Shown here: positions 1 through 41,200 of the stretch, piece by piece
Numbering within the stretch: position 1 is the stretch's first letter
Layout: each line of letters starts with the position of its first letter
Source of the DNA: Eudorina sp. 2006-703-Eu-15
Taxonomy: Eukaryota; Chlorophyta; Chlorophyceae; Chlamydomonadales; Volvocaceae
Reading direction: 5' to 3'
Assembly: GCA_003117195.1 (NCBI GenBank)
Contig: BDSI01000026.1
Coordinates: 186,001 to 250,000, forward strand
Length of the DNA: 64,000 bases
Translations under genes and position numbers: made by a program
The notes under the pieces: model-generated
The model's database searches: none
Told to the model about the DNA's origin: nothing
What the model saw: the letters and a program-made list of their open reading frames with translations, nothing else

Positions 1-32
1 GAGCAACAGCAACAACAGTATGAGCAGCATGA

Positions 33-64
<32 letters not shown>

Positions 65-192
65 GGCCCACAGACTTGCGCATTGGAGTCACTGCTGTCA
101 CTGCTGCTGCAGCGGGGGGACCTTTTGCGCCGCCGGGGGCAGGGGAAGGGGCGATTCAGATGCCGGTGCCTTGGCAGGCTTGGGCAACCTAG
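1..192 (+). CDS. C-terminal end of a glutamine-rich protein (5' truncated by window edge)
   Basis: Frame 1 is open from the first base to a TAG at 190-192, giving 63 residues. They begin with a Gln-rich run (QQQQQ, EQQQ, RQQQQQQR) and pass into a non-repetitive tail that includes RPTDLRIGVTAV and ends IQMPVPWQAWAT. I read it as the last exon of a gene entering from the left, because the tail is compositionally normal protein while the other two frames give Ser or Arg/Leu-rich filler. The style resembles the Gln-rich exon of the regA-like gene at 9.8-13.1 kb, so a transcription-factor-like protein is possible. That is inference from composition only; no domain is visible. No TGTAA polyadenylation signal was seen in the next kilobase, so the 3' end is undefined. 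Confidence 0.45.
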
Positions 193-7817: not shown

Positions 7818-8033
7818 CGGCTCAGCTTTTCTCCTTGATAGCACACATACACACACACAATAACACACACAGCAGCAGGTCGCGTCACGTTACGTCAATG
7901 GACAAGCTCTTCGCCGGACGGACGACGTCCCGGATCAGCACGCTCCTGTTTGGTGGCGACGGGGCATGATGGTGCACAAGGCCAGGGTCAGGCGGGTCAG
8001 GCGCCCGCCGCAGCACGCCAGGCGTCCGACGAG

Positions 8034-8280
8034 GACGGTCCCGTGGGACGGTCCCGTGGGACGGTCCCCGTGGGACGGTCCCGTGGGACGGTCCCCCTGG
8101 GACGGTCCCGTGGGACGGTCCCGTGGGACGGTCCCCGTGGGACGGTCCCGTGGGACGGTCCCCGTGGGACGGTCCCGTGGGACGGTCCCCGTGGGACGGT
8201 CCCCGTGGGACGGTCCCGTGGGACGGTCCCCGTGGGACGGTCCCGTGGGACGGTCCCCGTGGGACGGTCCCCGTGGGACG
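8034..8280. repeat. 13/14-bp minisatellite GACGGTCCC(C)GTGG
   Basis: About 18 head-to-tail copies of GACGGTCCCGTGG alternating with a one-base-longer GACGGTCCCCGTGG. Each unit contains a near-dyad, GTCCCGTGGGAC. The 13/14-nt alternation keeps several frames open on both strands (peptides such as GPSHGTVPR), so the long open frames here are repeat translations and not genes. Confidence 0.9.
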
Positions 8281-9164
8281 CGACCGCGGCGGGGCGCGGG
8301 GCAGGCAATGCACAATGTCGGGCGGCTGCGCTGCTGATTGCTGAAAGAGCAACCACTCCTCCATCATAGCAGGTCTCTCTCGCAGCCCCGGCCCTGACCC
8401 TGGCCCCGACCCTGGCCCCGACCCGCGCTCATTGCCACATCGGGGACGTCCGCCGGCGTGTCGACGTGCCCGGCTGGTCCACACTGTCAATCTAAACACA
8501 CACACTCACTCACACACACACACTTACGCATCCGGGAGGGTGTCTCGCTGAAGACACCCACATCCGGAGCGCGGGCGCAGACACGCCTGCTATGCATGAC
8601 ACGTATGGCCTGCCACCAGAGCACACAGACACGAGGGGGGTCTTCGCTAAGCACAAAGGGCATACACGCACACAGACGCTTACACACGCCTACACGCGCC
8701 AGCCCGCCCTCCCGCCCGATCTTGTTTCTTCGTTGTTCTATTGACCCTAGAATCAATCGGTCCGATGACGTACAAGCGCCGTACAATCCCGCAGCAGTGT
8801 GTACAATGATTCGTGTGGCTTACGGTTGGATCCAGCCAACAGACGCGCGGCGCGCGCCTTGGGCGCGCGGCTCGCTCCGGAACCGCGAGCCCCCGCTCCC
8901 TGGCCGCCCACACTCTGCTCCCTGGCACCTGGAAGCAAGCAGCAGGGCCGCCAGCGGGGTGCAGCCGCCATGTGCGGACACAACGCGCGCGCCCCGACGT
9001 GTTGACTTGCATTGGCTTTCCCCTGAACCCAGGTAATGGTTGCCGACAGTGGACCAGTGAAGCCGCAGTGACGGAAACAACGGGCCCCTCCGCCCATGCC
9101 CCTTGCATGGCACTCAGTGTGGCCTTGACACCGACAATTAAACACGCACATCGGTGTTATCCAT

Positions 9165-9262
9165 CAACACACACACATGGCTAAGTTGTCCCTCATAACA
9201 CACACACACACACGGCTAAGTTGTCCCTCATAATACACACACACGGCTAAGTTGTCCCTCAT
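9165..9262. repeat. Three copies of a CA-rich unit with GGCTAAGTTGTCCCTCAT
   Basis: The block GGCTAAGTTGTCCCTCATA appears three times, separated by CA runs of shrinking length. It lies beyond the probable polyadenylation site of the regA-like gene, whose transcription runs toward lower coordinates. Confidence 0.8.
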
Positions 9263-9296
9263 AGATAAGAGTCCCTCGGGCGAGTCTCTTATCTAT
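9261..9296. repeat. 11-bp perfect inverted repeat (hairpin)
   Basis: ATAGATAAGAG at 9261-9271 is the exact reverse complement of 9286-9296, with a 14-nt loop. It directly follows the CA-rich tandem unit and lies about 100 nt beyond the TGTAA signal of the minus-strand regA-like gene. A role in 3'-end formation is possible but not shown. Confidence 0.7.
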
Positions 9297-9769: not shown

Positions 9770-12700
9770 CTATAGCTGTTGGTGAAGTTCCTGTTGTTGC
9801 TGCATTTGCTGCTGTTGCTGCATTTGCTGCTGCTGCTGCATTTGTTGCTGCTGCTGCATTTGTTGCTGCTGCTGCATTTGTTGCTGCTGCTGCATTTGTT
9901 GCTGCTGCTGCTGCATTTGTTGCTGCTGCTGCATTTGCTGTGGGTGGTGCAGCGGTCCACACATAGGCCCCACAGATCGCTCCGGAACTCTGTCGTACTG
10001 TACGGGTGGGACCTCCCAGTCAGCCACTGTGGGCGGCAGTGCCTGTTGCTGTTGCTGCTGATGTTGATACGCATTATGCTGCAGCTGCTGCGGCTGATGG
10101 GGGTGGTGGTACGGACGTGGACGGTACGGAACCTGGTGCTGCGTTGGCGGCACGGATGGCGGTGACGCCTGTAGCTTAGCCCTCTCGTCCAGTTGTCGCA
10201 TGTAGGGGTGGTAGCGACTGCCCGCCGTGGACAGCTGCCGCTGCTGCAAGGTGTGAGGGGAGGAGCAGGCATAGGGTAGGTGGTGGTGGTGGTGGTGCCT
10301 GAGTGGAGAAAACGTCGGCGGCGGGCGGGCGCCGTTAAGCAGCAGCTGCTGTTCCGCCTGCTGCGGCGACGGGATCGGGAGCTGCTGCAGCTGCTGCTCC
10401 TGTTGGTGCAACAGCAACGACGGCTGTAGCAGTTGCTGGTGGTACGGATGGAAGGGATGGTGAGTGCGGACATGAGGGTCCCGCGTGTGGTATTGGGGTG
10501 GGCGCTGCGGCGGGGAGGTGTACTGCGGCGGCCAGTGACGTGGGCTGTAGCCAGGCCGGTAGCTGCATCCCGGCTGTAGCAGAGGCGACAAGGGCCGAAG
10601 CGCCGGCAGGGAGCGAGGCTGATGTAGCAACTGCTGAGAGGCCCGTGGAGAATATAAGGACAGCGGCAGCGACGGCGCTGCGGGGTTTCGTGGCTGTAGC
10701 AGCTGCTGCGGCTGCTGCTGCGGCGGCTGTGTCTGCGGCCCGGGTGGCTGGGCTGGCTGTAGTTGCTGCTGTGGTTGCTGAGGCTGTAGCTGTTGTGTCC
10801 TTAGATGCCCCAGGGGCGGCGGCTGCCCCTGCTGCTGCGGTGGCGGCGACTGGAGTTGAGCCTCCGGTTGGTACGGCAGGTGCCATGGCCAAGATACCTG
10901 CGACTGCGGCGGCTGCGACTGCGGCGCTGGCAGAGGCGCAGGCTGCCGCTCAACATCAGCATCCAGATGCCGAGACCCTAGGCCCTCCGCCCCTGTCGAG
11001 CACGTGGGTGGGGCCGCTACGGCAGCAGCTATAGCAGCGGCGGCTGCAGCCGCCGGTGCGGGGGTGCTGCTACTGCCCGTGGACGCCGCCCGCGCACGTT
11101 CTCCATCCGCCACTTGCCCGCGGGTGCAGCACCCCACCAGGATGCTCCTCCCGGGTGCGAGAGGGACAAGCCTCTGTAGCTGCTGCTGCGGTGGCGGCTG
11201 TGCCTGCTGCTGCAGTGGTGGCTGCGGCTGCTGCTGCGGTGGTGGCTGCTGCTGCTGCGGTGGCGGCTGCTGACCTTCGTGAGGTGCACAGACTGAGGTC
11301 ATCGGTGTTACGGCAGAATGTGTCCTCGGCCGGTCACTGGGGCAGCAGCTGGGGGCCGCGACCCGGCTGCCGTTGTACGATCCCATTGTGGGAGCAACCG
11401 TGTCGTCGTCGCCGCGGGAGGCGCTGACCCATGGGTCGCCGAGAGCCAGCTGGGAGCAGGCGGCGTGTGCCGCGAAGGGGCTCTGGAGGCTGGGCTGACG
11501 TGCCGGCACGTCCTGCACGGATGGCGACGGCTGCGGCGGCACCTGCCCGCCGGGATAAACGTTGCCGAGACCAGGGAAAGCAGGCCGCATCGACAAAGCA
11601 CTCGCCGTGGCGCCGGCGCCGGCGTCTGCAGAGGTTGTGTGCGTGCCGTACATTGCCGACGCCACGCCCCAAGGCCATCCGCCGCCGCCGTCAACGTCAT
11701 GGGACGCAAGCCCTTCGGCGCCGTCGGTCGCGGCGGCGGCGCCGGACGTGGGTGCGGCGGCGCGGATGCCCAGGCCGCCGTCACTGGCTGCGGCGGCCGG
11801 GCTGTTGACGGAGGCGCCGCCGCCGAGGAGCGGTACGGCAGCCGCCGGCTTGGCGATGCCACTCCCCGACTGAGAGCGCCAGCTGCCACCGGGCAAGCCA
11901 CCGAGCCCTCCATTCGCCCCAGTGGCAGCACCAGCAATAGCCGCTGTCGCAGCTGAAGCAGTAGCCGCAGCAATGGCAGTAGCAGCCGCAGCAGGAACCG
12001 ACAATGTAGTGAAATCCTCCGATGGCGGGTACAAGTCGCTCGGCGTAGACACGGGTGCCGACAGGGTGTCGCGGAGCCGTCCGCTGCTGCCGCTACTGCC
12101 GCCACCGACAGCAGCAGCAGCAGCAGCACTACCGACGCTCGCGAACCGGTCAAGGCGCTCGCTGCCCGGCCCAACCGGCGATGGCACGGCGGCATCGGCA
12201 GCGGTGGTACGGGGCCCGCCTCCACCGTCAACTGCGCCGCCGTCGCCACGGCGGCAACCGACCCATGGGACGCTGTCCGGCTCCTCCTGCTTCGGGATCA
12301 CCCCGAGTACCCCGCCACGGCCGTTCTGCACACATCCCCGATCGTCTCCAACAGTGAACATGCTACCTGCAGCCGTCGGCAGCGGCGGCGGCGACGGCGG
12401 GGACAGTACGGATGGCGGCGGCGCCCCAGCGTCCGAAGATGATGCTGAGAGACCCGTGGGTCGCTTCCCAGTGCCGTAAATGTCATCCAGGATGCCCGAA
12501 GTCTCCAGGAGCTCCAGCAGCGGCGCGTCAAGCGCCTCCGCTGATGGGGTGACAGCAGCGGCAGCAGCAGCGGCAGCGGCGGCGGCGTCCGGGGCGTCGG
12601 GGCCGGGAATGTACGACACTGCTCTCTGACCACCACTGGCCCGAGTGGGGAGCGCCGCTGCTGCGGGGGCGAAGACGCTGCCGGGGCCATCTGTACGACA

Positions 12701-15700
12701 GTCGGGTAGGGACTGGAAAGCTGCGGCCGCGGGAAGGGTCTCCAGCACAGCATGGCGGTTCAGGGCCGGTGGGAGACTGTCGGGCTGCCGCAATTCTGGT
12801 CCGTCGGCGACTTCACCGACCTCCATGGCGTCGACGGCGGCATCGTCTTCGTGTGCGGCAGCGCCAACCTCAGCATCGCCGTCGCCGTCTTCGTCGCCGT
12901 CATCGGTGGCTCGTCGCCTGCGGGGGCGGCCCTGGGACGCGACGGGAGCACGGGCCACACCGGTAGCAAGGCACAGCGTCGGAGGATGTACCGTGAGGAG
13001 AGTGCGGCAACGGCGAAACGGGATGACAAGCTCAATCGACACCGTGGCCACGGCGATTTCCTCTTGTGCACCGTCGGCCTCGTCGCCATAGGAAGTCACA
13101 CTCTCCCCGAAGCCGTCGGCACATTTCCCGTTTAATTAATCAGCCTTGTTACATTCAGGAATTAACCTAATATGTTTGACACAGTGAAACCATGATAGTT
13201 ATCATCAGCTGTCAGGAGCTGAGTTCATAACAAATGACACACCTCTGCATTTAAAACTTAAAACCCAGCTGGTCCAGCGAACTGGCAACCCGATATGGCA
13301 TCAATCATAAAATTCAACAATACTGGTAACCAGTAGATGATTAGTCCAGCATGGCGACTGCGAAAAAAGACACAGTATGTATATGCAACGAGCGTATTTC
13401 CACTCGGGATGAAGTCAGTGGAGTTGATCCCCGACTCCTAAATTAGATACCTGGTAGGGACCGGGCACCAAATTTCATTTTGACGATTATATCAGTTATA
13501 ACATAAGAGGGCTACAGAAAAGTTTCTAATCCCGCGTAATCCGTCTGTTCTAAGACCGGGCTGCAATCCACCTTCTGAATCAAGTGGAAATTGGAAGAGT
13601 TCGTTTCAACGGGCAAAGTCCTACTGCGCGGTTCACAACAATGTTCAAGCCGGATGAACATGACAAGACTAATAAAATGCATCCCCTACGAAGATCCTTT
13701 ATAGAATTTCGGCATGGTACGGTACATGGGACCGCATGGGACACATACGGTCTACCTCGAAACCGTACCAGACGTTTAGGGCTTGGCAATAACCTAGTCA
13801 AGAGCTAGGCCCTAGTTTCCTGCCCAGATACCCAACGTTCGCTTACCTTCACCCGCCCTTCCCCGTCCCACCCGCCCTCCCCTGTCATCCCTCATCACCC
13901 GCCCTGCCCACGTCACGGCACAGGGGATAGGGCCCAGCCAGCCACCCACCTGCAGTATGGGCAGGCCGTGTTGCTGCAGCCACCTGCCCAGCGTGACCCC
14001 CGAGGGGAGCACCTTGATGCTGACGTGCCACTTGGCCGTGGCGGTGCCGGCCAGCCGCTCAAATCTGTACGGCACGCGGCACAGAACACGACGTCACGAA
14101 GCAGCGGCGCAGCAGCACATATCAACAAACCTACAAACATATGTACATGAATATTGTAGACGGTCATTGACTGTACGTCAGGACCTGTACGGCAATCCAC
14201 ATTCAGCGTATTTACATATCAGAAAGGTCATCGATTGTACGGCAGGACCTGCCAAAATAACAGATGCCCCCACAGCCGCACGAACTTCCCTGCTGCCTCA
14301 ACAAAGTCAAGCACCCAGTGTCGCACACTGTCGTACCTGCCGCGACTCATCATCTCCGAGCCGCACTGGATGCAGTCGCCGCCCGTCAGATACAGCCGCG
14401 GGTGAAACACACCCACAGCTCCTCTGGTGATCCGGGTACGAGCCGCGGAGGTCGAGGTCCGGTCACCACCCCGCCGACATCGTGACGCCACTTGCACTTG
14501 CACCGGCGGGGGCAGTAACGGCTGCTGCTGCGGCGGCGGCGGCGGCAGCGGCGGCGGCGGCCGCCGTGCGCGTAGCGACGGTGCCGCGGCTGAGAGCTCA
14601 TTCCTGCTCGCGACAGTGGCAGCAGCAGCCCCTGCAGCAGTTGCACCATTAACAACCGTTCCGTTGCCTTGGCTGCGCTGCCGGTCGGACAAAACACGTA
14701 CTCAACATTGCTACGGAATCACAGTCCATTTCTTCTGCCGGCCACTCACCGTACGACAGATGACTGCCAGCGGACGCGGGTCCCGCCGCCGCAGCAAAGC
14801 CGCACGCAGCAGCTGCAGCAGCGGACTGCGCACGCAGAGGGCCGTACGGGCCAGCGGCGCGGCCGCAGCTGGCGGCGGCGACGGCCGAGGCCTGCTCCGT
14901 GTCCGGCCAAACATCGGTCGTCGTGGCATTCCACGCGACAGCTCCAGGGAGCTGCACACTGGATGACGTAATGCGTGGCGGCAGCGACATCGATGTTTCC
15001 AGACCGCTCCATCGGGTGGTCAGGCCTCCATTGCCAGCGGCGGCGGTGGCCGCGGCGGGAGGGGCGTTGCTCGTGGGGACATGTGCCGCTACCTCCGATA
15101 CCGCCATAGCGATTTCCTGGCTGGTGCCGATGCCGTCGCCGCCGCTACTGACGGCGGCGGGCAGGGGCACAGCTCCGGCAGGTGCCTCCATGAGCTCGTC
15201 GATAGGGCGCTGCAGCAGCCCGCATGTTGAGATGCTCCGGCCGTACGGCATGTACTGCGACAGGCCGTCGTCAACGTTGCCGCCGCTGCCGCCGTCGCCG
15301 ACGGCGCCGCATGACATGGAGCGCTGACTGCTGTCGTGCTGAGTGGGCAGGGGTGGGAGCGGCGGCAGCGGCGGCAGCGGCAGGCAGCTGGGTGCTGTGA
15401 GTGGCCTGCAGTACGGCAGTTGTGTGCCGTGTACGGCGGCCTGTTCATGCCGCAGCGTAACGAAGGACGGCTGTTCGGACAGCTCTCGAGCGAGAGGTCC
15501 CCGCTGAGGAGGTGGAGGAGGTGCAAGATCTGGATGTGTTTTCGGTGTCCGGATGGGAAGGGCAGCGGGATCGGCGAGTGTTCCAGTGTTGACAGTTGGT
15601 GGTGGCTGTGAAGACAACGGCTCGGCGGGCGCACTGGACGGTGTCAATGCGCAGGTGGATTGACCTTCCAGTGGCTTTGCAGGGCCAAGCGCGACGCTAG

Positions 15701-16067
15701 ACGTGCGAGCTGCTGGGGCTGAGCCCTGCAGCATTGACATCATCGTCAACGTAACTGGGCCACAAGGAAAGGGCGCATCGGCATCCCGTCCTCCAGCGCG
15801 TTGTTGGCAACACGACGTCATTAAGAAACTGCTGCTTATTTGCTGCTGCTGGTAGTCGCCGGCCCAACCCAGCGCTGAGTTCCGGCCACCATTCGCGGGC
15901 TGTGAAGGAAGTTCGGGGTAGCGCTGGGGAGCAGCAGCGTCGGGGGAAGCAATCTGCAGCCGGTATGTAGCACTATTTGCACTGGAACAGCTGTGGGTGA
16001 AGTTGATTGTATTGTTGACTGCACCCCGTAAGGTCGTTTGCGCGGCAACATGACGGCCAGGTTGCAT
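9770..16067 (-). CDS. regA-like (RLS) VARL/SAND-domain regulatory protein, multi-exon
   Basis: A putative transcriptional regulator of the volvocine regA-like family, whose founder regA represses reproductive functions in Volvox somatic cells. Exon 1 (from ATG 16067 to about 14748, donor G|GTGAGTGG) encodes a low-complexity Ala/Pro/Ser N-terminus. The joins between 14.75 and 14.43 kb are unresolved; several acceptors are possible and no phase choice is clean. The DNA-binding core comes from an exon ending 14337 and an exon 14064-13950 (see separate entry). A long C-terminal exon, about 13102-9770, carries RPRRRR followed by an acidic run, then Ala, Gln and Pro-rich stretches, and ends in (QQQQQM)n. 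An AT-richer intron (13949-13103) precedes it, and its acceptor is weak. The C-terminal frame could instead start at an internal ATG near 12829 as a separate gene. Family assignment is strong; exact exon structure is not. Confidence 0.65.
9783..9955 (-). repeat. CAG/CAA repeat coding (QQQQQM)n
   Basis: An imperfect 15-18 bp unit (on the plus strand GCTGCTGCTGCATTTGTT) repeated about nine times at the 3' end of the RLS coding exon. It encodes glutamine runs of 4-6 broken by single methionines. Purity of units is high, so length variation between strains is likely. Another CAG run (about 12 triplets) lies at 9557-9595, downstream of the stop. Confidence 0.85.
13103..13949 (-). other. AT-richer intron of the RLS gene (tentative)
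   Basis: The stretch between the VARL exon donor and the Gln-rich exon is visibly lower in GC than the flanking exons, with many AT runs. I find no exon inside it that continues the frame. In Volvox regA, introns hold cis-regulatory elements (established knowledge), so an intronic control region is a reasonable guess. If the Gln-rich exon is a separate gene, this is its promoter. Confidence 0.4.
13950..14440 (-). CDS. VARL/SAND core-encoding exons of the RLS gene
   Basis: The upstream exon (to 14337) gives FHPRLYLTGGDCIQCGSEMM and ends in codon phase 2 at a GGCAG|GTACGA donor. The next exon starts at 14064 after a TGCCGTACAG acceptor, also phase 2, and runs to 13950 (CTGCAG|GTGGGT), encoding RFERLAGTATA then KWHVSIKVLPSGVTLGRWL and QQHGLPILQ. 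Joined, it follows the SAND pattern CI...G.W....FE.LAG...KWH.SIKV.PSG.TLGRWL.QHGLP. The KW...SI(K/R)V block is the DNA-contact region in SAND proteins. The 272-nt intron splits the domain just before FERLAG. Reading straight through that intron adds an unrelated segment and soon meets a stop, which supports splicing. Confidence 0.75.
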
Positions 16068-38281: not shown

Positions 38282-41200
38282 ATGGAACGCTTCACCGGTT
38301 TCTTGTTGGCCGAACGACTGGTGTACCTCGCGGTGCGTCCAAATACACCTAATAAGTATATTGTGACTATATCTGAAGTGTAGTTTTGAATTTTGATGGA
38401 GATGCGATCTGGAGTTTCCGCCCTCCTCGCAGTTGGTCGCTGGGCTGCAGCTCAACGTGCTGCGCGAGGGCCACCGCTTCGCGCGCCAGGTCCAATCAGT
38501 CGTCTCGCTGCCGGGCCTGCGGGACGAGGGGACCGTCCTCGGACGCAACGACCTGTCGGACTACCAGTGGCGCAGCTTCCGGGATGCCGTACCGCTGCTG
38601 TCCGTCGCCCTGGTCGGCTTCCTGGCCCTCGCCCGCCTGGTGAGAGGTCTAAAAGGGTCAATGTCCCATCTTTGGGCATGATGTCTCGATCTCCTCCAAG
38701 CTGAGAGATTGGTTTGATTGGTTGATGCAACCACTGTTGTTGATGATGTAGGGGTGGGCGTTGATGCAAGGGAAGGAGACGGGGTGCGGATATGTAAATG
38801 ATGTCGCCCCGGAAGAAATTCCCGCGCGGAGCGAGATTAGTAGGTCCTGATGCCGGGGGCTGGTCTCGCGGATGGCCTTCGCCGTGAGGGCGCCCGCACC
38901 CTCCACCATGTGGCAAACCGACCGCTGCAAGCCCTCCTGAACCGCGGTCGAGGCGGCGCCGGGCACCTGCCTCACCAAACCGATGGGTGCCAGTGGCGAC
39001 CGCTGACTGGTTCGCGGTCCCAGAACCCCCGCGGCCACCTACAGACACGGTTCTGGGCGGGCTTATCATTTAACACACCCGTCCTCCCACCCCGCCACCC
39101 CTCGGCTCCCCTGACGCAGGCGCGGTGCTTCCCCGGCAGCAGGCAGGTCCTGATGGTCGCTCTGTCCCTGGCCTTCCTGGGTGAGGCCTCGGGCGCGTGT
39201 GGGCCCAGCCAGCAGCAATAGGGTCGTCCGGGGAACCTTCCCTGAAACCGTCAAACGGCGGCAGGCAGAGTCTGCGGCCGCGAGCCTCGCCTTCCCCTCG
39301 CCTTCCTTCCCCTCCCCTCGGTAGGACGTCGCGTGTCAGCTCCACCACCCGCCTCGTCCGGTGCCCCCTGACCCCTCCAATCCCCGACCCTACCCCACTC
39401 GACCTGCCCGCATCCTCTCCCCGCACCGCACCGCAGGGGCGCTGCATGGCGCCTGTGCCGTCTACGTCTTGGCCCTGACAACTGGCGCGTACGGCATCAG
39501 CCGCTTGCTGGCCGACAAGCCGTACGGGTGCGCTCCGGGACGCTCCAGGGGGGGACCCGCTTGTGTACGGCGATTGGTCGCGTGGATGCACAAGTCTCAG
39601 GTCACCTGTCTGGTGTCTTCGGCACCCACCAACGCCTGTCGTACCGTACTTCGCCAGGCAGCCAGCCAGGCAGTCAGCCAGGCAGCCAGCCAGGCCAAGG
39701 GTACGTAGAGGACGCCTCGCCGGCAGCAGGAAATCTCCCTCCAGAAGGTTCCTCTGCCAGGTGTTTTCTCTGCCACGCAGCCAAGCACGCCCTCCACCCC
39801 TTCCGCTCCCCTCGCCGCGCAACAGGATATTGGTCGTGTGGGGCTACTGTTGCGGGACGCTGCTGCTGGCGAGGCTGAGTGAGGGGCTGCCCTTCGCCTG
39901 GATCAGGTGAGGGGAGGGCAGGGGGGCCCGGTCACGTTCGGTGTGAGGTAGGCAACCGAGGGGCCTCGGAGGAGCGGAGCGGATGTGTGGGGCGAACCCA
40001 CCTCCAGGGGGCCGCTGGGTTTCTCTATCCGTCCATCTCCTTAACGTGCCCAAAGAGTGACTCCTTTTGGACCCCCCCTCCCCGGCCTCCCCCCTACCCC
40101 GGGGGGAACCCCGACCGCAGCCCCACCCTGGAGCCCCTGGACCGCCACCGGGGCCTCCTCCGCTGGCACATTCACTACAACCTGCTCGTGCTCAGATGCA
40201 TCTCCTTCGCGGCCGACCTGCGGTGGGCCCGGGACGGGAAGCGCCAGCAGCGGAACGATTCCAAAGACGGCGGCGGCGGCGACAGCGGAGGCGGCAGTGG
40301 GGGCACAAGCGCCGGTAGCCTGGATTTGGAGCTCGGGGCAAGTCGTACAATGCCGTACATTGTAGGGTGTGACGGCGGATGAACTGTAGGTGCTGCCGTG
40401 CAGGCGCTGGCGGAGCAGTCCCTACCGTTGCCGTACTACAGCCTAATGCCGTACCTGGAGTACGTGCTGTACCCGCCGCTGTACATCGCGGGGCCCACCA
40501 TCACCTTCAACAGCTTCGCGGCGCAGCGGATGCTCCGACGACAGCCGCTGCTGCGGCCGCGGCAGGTCGGAGTTTCAGGGCTTCGGGATTTCTGGGCTCC
40601 GGTTTCAGGGTTCCTTATATACATGTTACTGGCTTGCTGCATCATGCAGGTCGTACTGTACGGACTGCGACTGGCGCTGGTCTGGTCTTGCCTGGAGCTG
40701 CTGACGCACTTGCTGCCGTACAACAGCATCGCCAAGCACCGAGTGCTTGACTGGCTGGCGGCGGCGGCGCCGGCGGCGGGGAGCAGCGCCAGCGGCGGCG
40801 GCGGCGGCTGGCCGACCCCGCGGCCCCTTCACTACGCCATCACCGGCTTCTGGGTCCTCCTGTTCATGTGGCTCAAGGTACCGTACACGTGTGTACGACA
40901 TTTATTCGTGTTAATAAGCGAACCCCGTGCCTGCGCTCGCCCCGACCCTCCCTTGGCCCCCCCAGTTCACCGTCCTGTGGCGCTTCTTCCGGCTCGTCGC
41001 GATGGCGGATGGTGTCGTACCTCTGGAGAACATGACGAGATGCGTGTGCGACAACTACGACATCGAGGTACGGCGCTGTACGACCACTTCTTGGACAAAA
41101 GACATGGCTCCCAGCCAGAGCCTGACGAGCCTGGCAGCCTCCCTCCCTCCCTCCCTCCCTCCCCCCCCGTGTCGCCCCCCCACCTGTAACCGCTACGACG

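Follow-up and report, generated by a model that had tools for sequence, protein, structure and literature searches.

The window analysed here is a 64,000-nucleotide stretch of the genome of the volvocine alga Eudorina sp. 2006-703-Eu-15 (contig BDSI01000026.1, hereafter C26, positions 186,001 to 250,000; window position 1 is C26:186001), in which an earlier note had described a regA-like developmental regulator of the VARL family at 9770–16067. regA is the switch that prevents reproduction by Volvox body cells. The locus raises the question of which kind of VARL gene this is (gene A), and of why its core is nearly identical to that of a neighbouring paralogue (gene B) while the flanks of the two genes have diverged. 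Judged from its sequence, gene A is an rlsJ-type member of the VARL family, with Volvox carteri RlsJ and RlsK as its closest named relatives, and the likeness of the A and B cores probably results, we infer, from gene conversion that acts on the DNA-binding core within an old inverted rlsJ/rlsK pair, with the flanks diverging freely.

On the minus strand, positions 16067–9770 read as one gene of four exons (16067–14750, 14631–14337, 14064–13950 and 12931–9770) with GT/AG introns and a single open frame, encoding 1629 amino acids. The gene ends given in the earlier note, an ATG at 16067 and a stop at 9770, fit this model, and its expectation of very large low-complexity flanks in a protein of over 1,500 residues was borne out by the product, which is rich in Ala, Pro and Gln, is mostly of low complexity and contains a single VARL (SAND-type) core. 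The exons are as follows.

14750..16067, minus strand: exon 1 of gene A (rlsJ-type), with ATG at 16067, an open frame and donor gtgagt at 14749; low-complexity N-terminal region and motif PFPCGPVTLTMM.
14337..14631, minus strand: exon 2 of gene A, in frame with exon 1 via the acceptor at 14631 (an acceptor at 14673 would keep the frame too), its donor being gtacga at 14336; N-terminal extension PVQVQVASR, then the first half of the VARL core (VGVFHPRLYLTGGDCIQCGSEMMSRGR).
13950..14064, minus strand: exon 3 of gene A, second half of the VARL core (FERLAGTATAKWHVSIKVLPSGVTLGRWLQQHGLPILQ), GT/AG borders; 113/115 bases identical to paralogue B.
9770..12931, minus strand: exon 4 of gene A, acceptor placed by homology to B and other RlsJ/RlsK-type proteins, stop at 9770–9772; GRPRRR basic motif, LLELLETSGILDDI motif, long Ala/Gln/Pro/Ser-rich tail and final QMQQQ repeats.

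The SAND-type core previously noted at about 14.0–14.4 kb is a complete VARL core across 14337/14064, with the quoted peptides located in the exon ending at 14337 (CIQCGSEMM) and in 14064–13950 (FERLAG...KWHVSIKVLPSGVTLGRWLQQHGLP). This join is supported by 13 proteins of other volvocine algae (P0001–P0013), in whose cores the reading is continuous across it. Intron 1 is needed to join CGPVTLTM in the exon 1 frame (residue 102 in gene A, residue 100 in Pleodorina starrii P0010) to PVQVQVASRCRRGG in the exon 2 frame, as both occur in the one P0010 protein; its acceptor may be either 14631 or 14673. The third join, for which the earlier note had given no fixed position, was placed at 13950 to 12931 by comparison with the neighbouring paralogue and with annotated proteins, 13 of the 15 proteins compared having LQ ahead of G[RK]P[RK], and an acceptor at 12931 makes positions 13135–12932 of the large open reading frame (ORF) an intron.

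Several smaller features accompany this model. The GRPRRR directly after the core (12931–12914, minus strand), where G[RK]P[RK] recurs in 13/15 proteins, resembles an AT-hook. The motif LLELLETSGILDDI (12520–12479, minus strand; residues 714–727) is common to P0010 and P0011, and its region forms two short helices in the predicted model of P0010 (predicted local distance difference test score, pLDDT, about 73); it may be a partner-binding motif. A QMQQQ-coding repeat occupies 9775–9940, at the C-terminal end.

Membership of the VARL family was assessed by homology, profile and domain searches. Nine proteins matched the region with 66–83 % identity over 77–98 % of its length (E 1.0e-45 to 2.4e-39; RlsJ 83 %, RlsK 73 %), a match beyond chance that agrees with the similarity to volvocine RLS proteins anticipated in the earlier note; a homology search from gene B yielded four proteins, none of them new. 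The profile of 13 VARL cores has 15 invariant columns, and the profile search scored only the 7,985 candidates with most words in common. The pattern of the short N-terminal extension before the core (PVQVQVASR in A) was found in 13 of the 15 proteins compared and is missing from the V. carteri RlsJ model and a partial V. africanus protein. The core intron position is shared by A and B, and other VARL loci of the genome are also split, at other sites.

The comparison with Pfam SAND (PF01342) that had been proposed gave only a match below the gathering cut-off (14.1 against 22 bits), as it did for V. carteri RlsJ (12.1), RlsK (11.4) and V. ferrisii RlsA (14.0). Pfam was run on nine of the 16 proteins found, with six sub-threshold SAND matches, three proteins without a match and none reaching the cut-off. 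A Pfam miss as evidence against the family was rejected, since known members also score below the cut-off. Relative to SAND domains such as those of SP140 and GMEB1, the sequence similarity of gene A is likewise under the Pfam cut-off, and in three dimensions the fold was found to be of the SAND type. A PDB sequence search with the core had no match at E 10, and Foldseek with the whole 486-residue model gave a single meaningless match (E 8.1). The VARL core of gene A is probably DNA-binding.

Gene B lies on the plus strand at C26:179859–186192 (exons 179859–182062, 182305–182419 and 182716–186192; 1931 residues), tail to tail with gene A, and 9,577 bases separate the two stop codons. The two genes share a block of about 520 bp.

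1..192, plus strand: 3′-terminal part of the final exon of paralogue B (rlsK-type), from the gene model; stop at 190–192, start to the left of the window.
13894..14416, minus strand: putative gene-conversion tract, shared with paralogue B at C26:181983–182475; identity per segment compared with chance.

The block starts inside an exon (exon 2, at 14416) and ends inside an intron, so that its borders match no exon border. To the left of it, A/B identity is 47 % (shuffled mean 50 %). Within it, identity is 96.2 % in the exon 2 part from 14416 (77/80), 84.7 % in the core intron (182/215 aligned), 98.3 % in the next exon (113/115) and 91.1 % in the first bases of the following intron (51/56); beyond it, identity is 45 % (shuffled 44 %) and then 50 % (shuffled 46 %). 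The core codons inside the block comprise 60 that are the same in A and B, four that differ synonymously and one that is changed. Just outside, PVQVQVASR and GRPRRR have the same residues in both genes, with 11 of 15 codons synonymously different, and the outside and inside counts of synonymous differences (11/15 against 4/64) differ with p 1.6e-7.

Gene B was assigned to the rlsK type because it has PDSxASSS in common with V. carteri RlsK and V. reticuliferus P0003, the only other carriers among the 15 proteins. Gene A, from which this motif is absent, was assigned to the rlsJ type based on LLExxGIL, in common with P0010 (Pleodorina) and P0011 (V. africanus), and on CGPVTLTM, in common with P0010. 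V. carteri RlsJ (P0004) resembles A in 59 of 67 core residues, in GRPRRRR after the core and in HPY[LM]R near the C-terminus, but differs at the other eight core residues and has no N-terminal extension, CGPVTLTM or LLExxGIL in its annotated model. V. carteri RlsK (P0005) resembles B in PDSxASSS and, by eye, in a similar glycine-rich linker before the core, whereas the remaining flanks are barely alignable. The scaffolds listed for V. carteri RlsJ and RlsK are of equal size (5,981,844).

Core differences within a lineage were 1/67 between A and B, none between V. carteri RlsJ and RlsK, and one between V. africanus J and V. reticuliferus K, against eight between A and V. carteri J and nine between A and Pleodorina J across lineages. 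Forcing the four J cores into one clade was rejected (approximately unbiased, AU, test, p 0.0074), as was forcing the K cores into one clade (p 0.011), although both tests are weakened by the J/K groups having been named after the core differences were seen. The Edaphochlamys pair groups together at 85/91.

On the reading that we favour, A and B would be an old inverted (tail-to-tail) pair in which ectopic gene conversion between the inverted copies would overwrite one core with the other, keeping the cores near-identical while the flanks diverge freely. The outcome would be two regulators, redundant or competing, that likely bind the same DNA sites with different regulatory regions; they would act as nuclear repressors or activators, with a putative role in development. 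Concerted evolution of the engrailed/invected homeobox in insects is a comparable case, in which neighbouring regulators share their DNA-binding part and the flanks diverge, in an unrelated domain and unrelated organisms.

Several observations weigh against this reading. The 15 codons outside the block are arginine-rich, and arginine has more synonyms; in the second core exon, A compared with each of five VARL genes on another contig, C78, shows only 3–6 synonymous differences among 16 shared residues, so codon bias may account for part of the low divergence there. V. carteri RlsJ is motif-poor in its annotated model, which lacks CGPVTLTM and LLExxGIL, and the assignment of A to J thus depends mostly on the Pleodorina and V. 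africanus proteins, whose J label was assigned in this analysis. HPY[LM]R is the sole listed motif joining A and V. carteri RlsJ (these two of 15), the DPW stretch of V. carteri RlsJ is also present in B and Gonium 5g127, and a looser form of the J (LLE) motif occurs in Tetrabaena and Gonium 11g146 as well. Near-identity of paired cores is also not universal, as the Gonium neighbours 11g146/11g147 differ at 15/67 core residues and are not placed together in the tree, and the Edaphochlamys pair has six differences. DNA was compared from one genome and the other species as proteins.

The alternative that survives best, though unlikely, is that rlsJ and rlsK stem from separate recent duplications in the individual lineages, so that young copies are still alike and their low-complexity flanks have diverged very fast. 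The cores do group by species in V. carteri, the Eudorina genome and Edaphochlamys, and low-complexity flanks align poorly even between orthologues. Independent duplications would not, however, be expected to give J-type and K-type flank motifs common across species, nor a block that begins within an exon and stops within an intron, with 11/15 conserved codons just outside it differing. Pairs close by locus number are also found in Gonium (11g146/11g147) and Edaphochlamys (011037/011039).

Less probable still is an absence of conversion altogether, the likeness being maintained by strong purifying selection that acts on core codons and on regulatory sequence in the core intron. Even distant VARL genes show few synonymous differences in their second core exon, and the introns of V. 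carteri regA hold enhancers and a silencer according to PMC10137558. Such selection leaves unexplained why the A and B cores are nearer to each other than to their orthologues, and why identity drops abruptly to chance, from 91 % in the third intron and from 96 % in exon 2. An old pair with conversion is favoured over both alternatives because young duplications do not account for the shared J/K motifs and selection alone does not account for the block borders.

A misassembled duplicate was rejected as the source of the block, the copies differing by 2–15 % inside it and completely outside.

The relationship to regA itself was examined with a core tree of 24 rows, from which the C22 core was excluded (as it was from the profile), as was an incomplete C5 core that the profile retained; P0015 and P0016 were left out. 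Gene A fell in the RlsJ/RlsK group, apart from this genome's regA-type genes (support 95/95); the tree included no named regA sequence, and the regA cluster on C78 is identified from the order of its genes together with the FLQ motif. The VARL tree that the earlier note had proposed thus places gene A outside the regA-type group, and of its regA-like label the family assignment stands, whereas no special link to regA was found. The further designation of developmental regulator is a putative one. Passages of PMC10137558 give FLQ as a motif of regA and rlsB, and also name LALRP. FLQ, downstream of the core in regA, is absent from gene A and present in the second and third C78 genes; LALRP, a motif upstream of the core in regA, was not found in A, in B or in the parts of the five C78 genes that were searched. 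The regA cluster (rlsA, regA, rlsB and rlsC, with rlsD nearby) resembles A in its VARL core, N-terminal extension and Gln/Ala/Pro-rich flanks, but core identity to A is 44–49 % and the core intron of A lies about four codons from the site in regA-type genes. Despite the same family and overall architecture, it is therefore highly improbable that gene A is this alga's regA orthologue or belongs to its regA cluster, an identity rejected on its separate tree group, lack of FLQ, different intron position and location on C26 rather than C78.

A search of the whole genome (181.2 Mb, 3033 contigs) gave at least 14 matches among the best candidates scored, and further VARL loci were found on contigs C122, C34, C78, C22, C5 and C31. 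Contig C78 carries five VARL genes whose cores are all of a single type, four of them consecutive on the same strand and the fifth on the opposite one. Their order fits the rlsA, regA, rlsB and rlsC arrangement with rlsD nearby that parts of PMC10137558 describe for the Eudorina group. Based on this order and on FLQ in the second and third genes, they were labelled as the putative regA cluster of the Eudorina genome.

In these five genes, stretches of 123–204 bases around the second core exon are 89–98.5 % identical in DNA. Over ten pairs, the second core half had 348 identical and 53 synonymous codons, against 73 and 92 in the first half, and nine of the ten pairs, which are not independent of one another, reached p<0.05. 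This signal is weakened by the comparison of A with the C78 genes, in which only 3–6 of 16 shared residues in the same half had different codons, indicating that codon bias contributes. Core conversion within the regA-type cluster is accordingly no more than suggested. Passages of PMC10137558 also report that regA, rlsB and rlsO of Yamagishiella unicocca are more alike than they are to homologues elsewhere, and explain this by loss and re-duplication; it is a related kind of observation to the A/B core likeness, and conversion would be another reading of it.

We put forward only tentatively the idea that the VARL core is a recurrent target of gene conversion family-wide, in both rlsJ/rlsK and the regA cluster. 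If so, paralogues would keep one DNA-reading head and evolve via flanks and expression, regA would have become a germ–soma switch without a change of binding target, and trees of VARL cores would partly record conversion rather than descent. VARL orthology, and with it the account of regA's origin, has been read partly from short-core trees, together with synteny, motifs and intron positions (PMC10137558, in section 4). If neighbouring genes exchange cores, such trees would mislead and flanks and synteny would have to carry orthology, and if conversion is true, paired regulators would have common binding sites and different regulation.

In V. carteri, 10 of 14 VARL genes, including regA, are overexpressed in somatic cells; neither rlsJ nor rlsK is named in the passages of PMC5704591 on this overexpression. 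The main text of PMC10137558 contains none of the terms ‘conversion’, ‘concerted’, ‘rlsJ’ or ‘rlsK’. A literature search by title and beginning of abstract found, among the matches listed, no report of gene conversion or concerted evolution in VARL genes, a coverage that does not extend to the 2007 VARL paper (Duncan et al.), so the J/K likeness may already have been reported. A search on conversion in transcription-factor paralogues generally gave nothing on the VARL family, and one on rlsJ/rlsK gave no related paper among the matches listed.

Elsewhere in the window, an ORF at 40383–41189 on the plus strand matched Pfam MBOAT (membrane-bound O-acyltransferase) at 29 bits against a cut-off of 27, the sole match when ten other ORFs of the window were searched against Pfam. 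Two repeats were also observed near the pair: between A and B, positions 8033–8280 hold a tandem array of about 18 copies of a 13–14 base unit (GGACGGTCCCGTG), and about 500 bases downstream of the gene A stop, a 31-base unit containing ACACAC runs occurs three times at positions 9162–9263.
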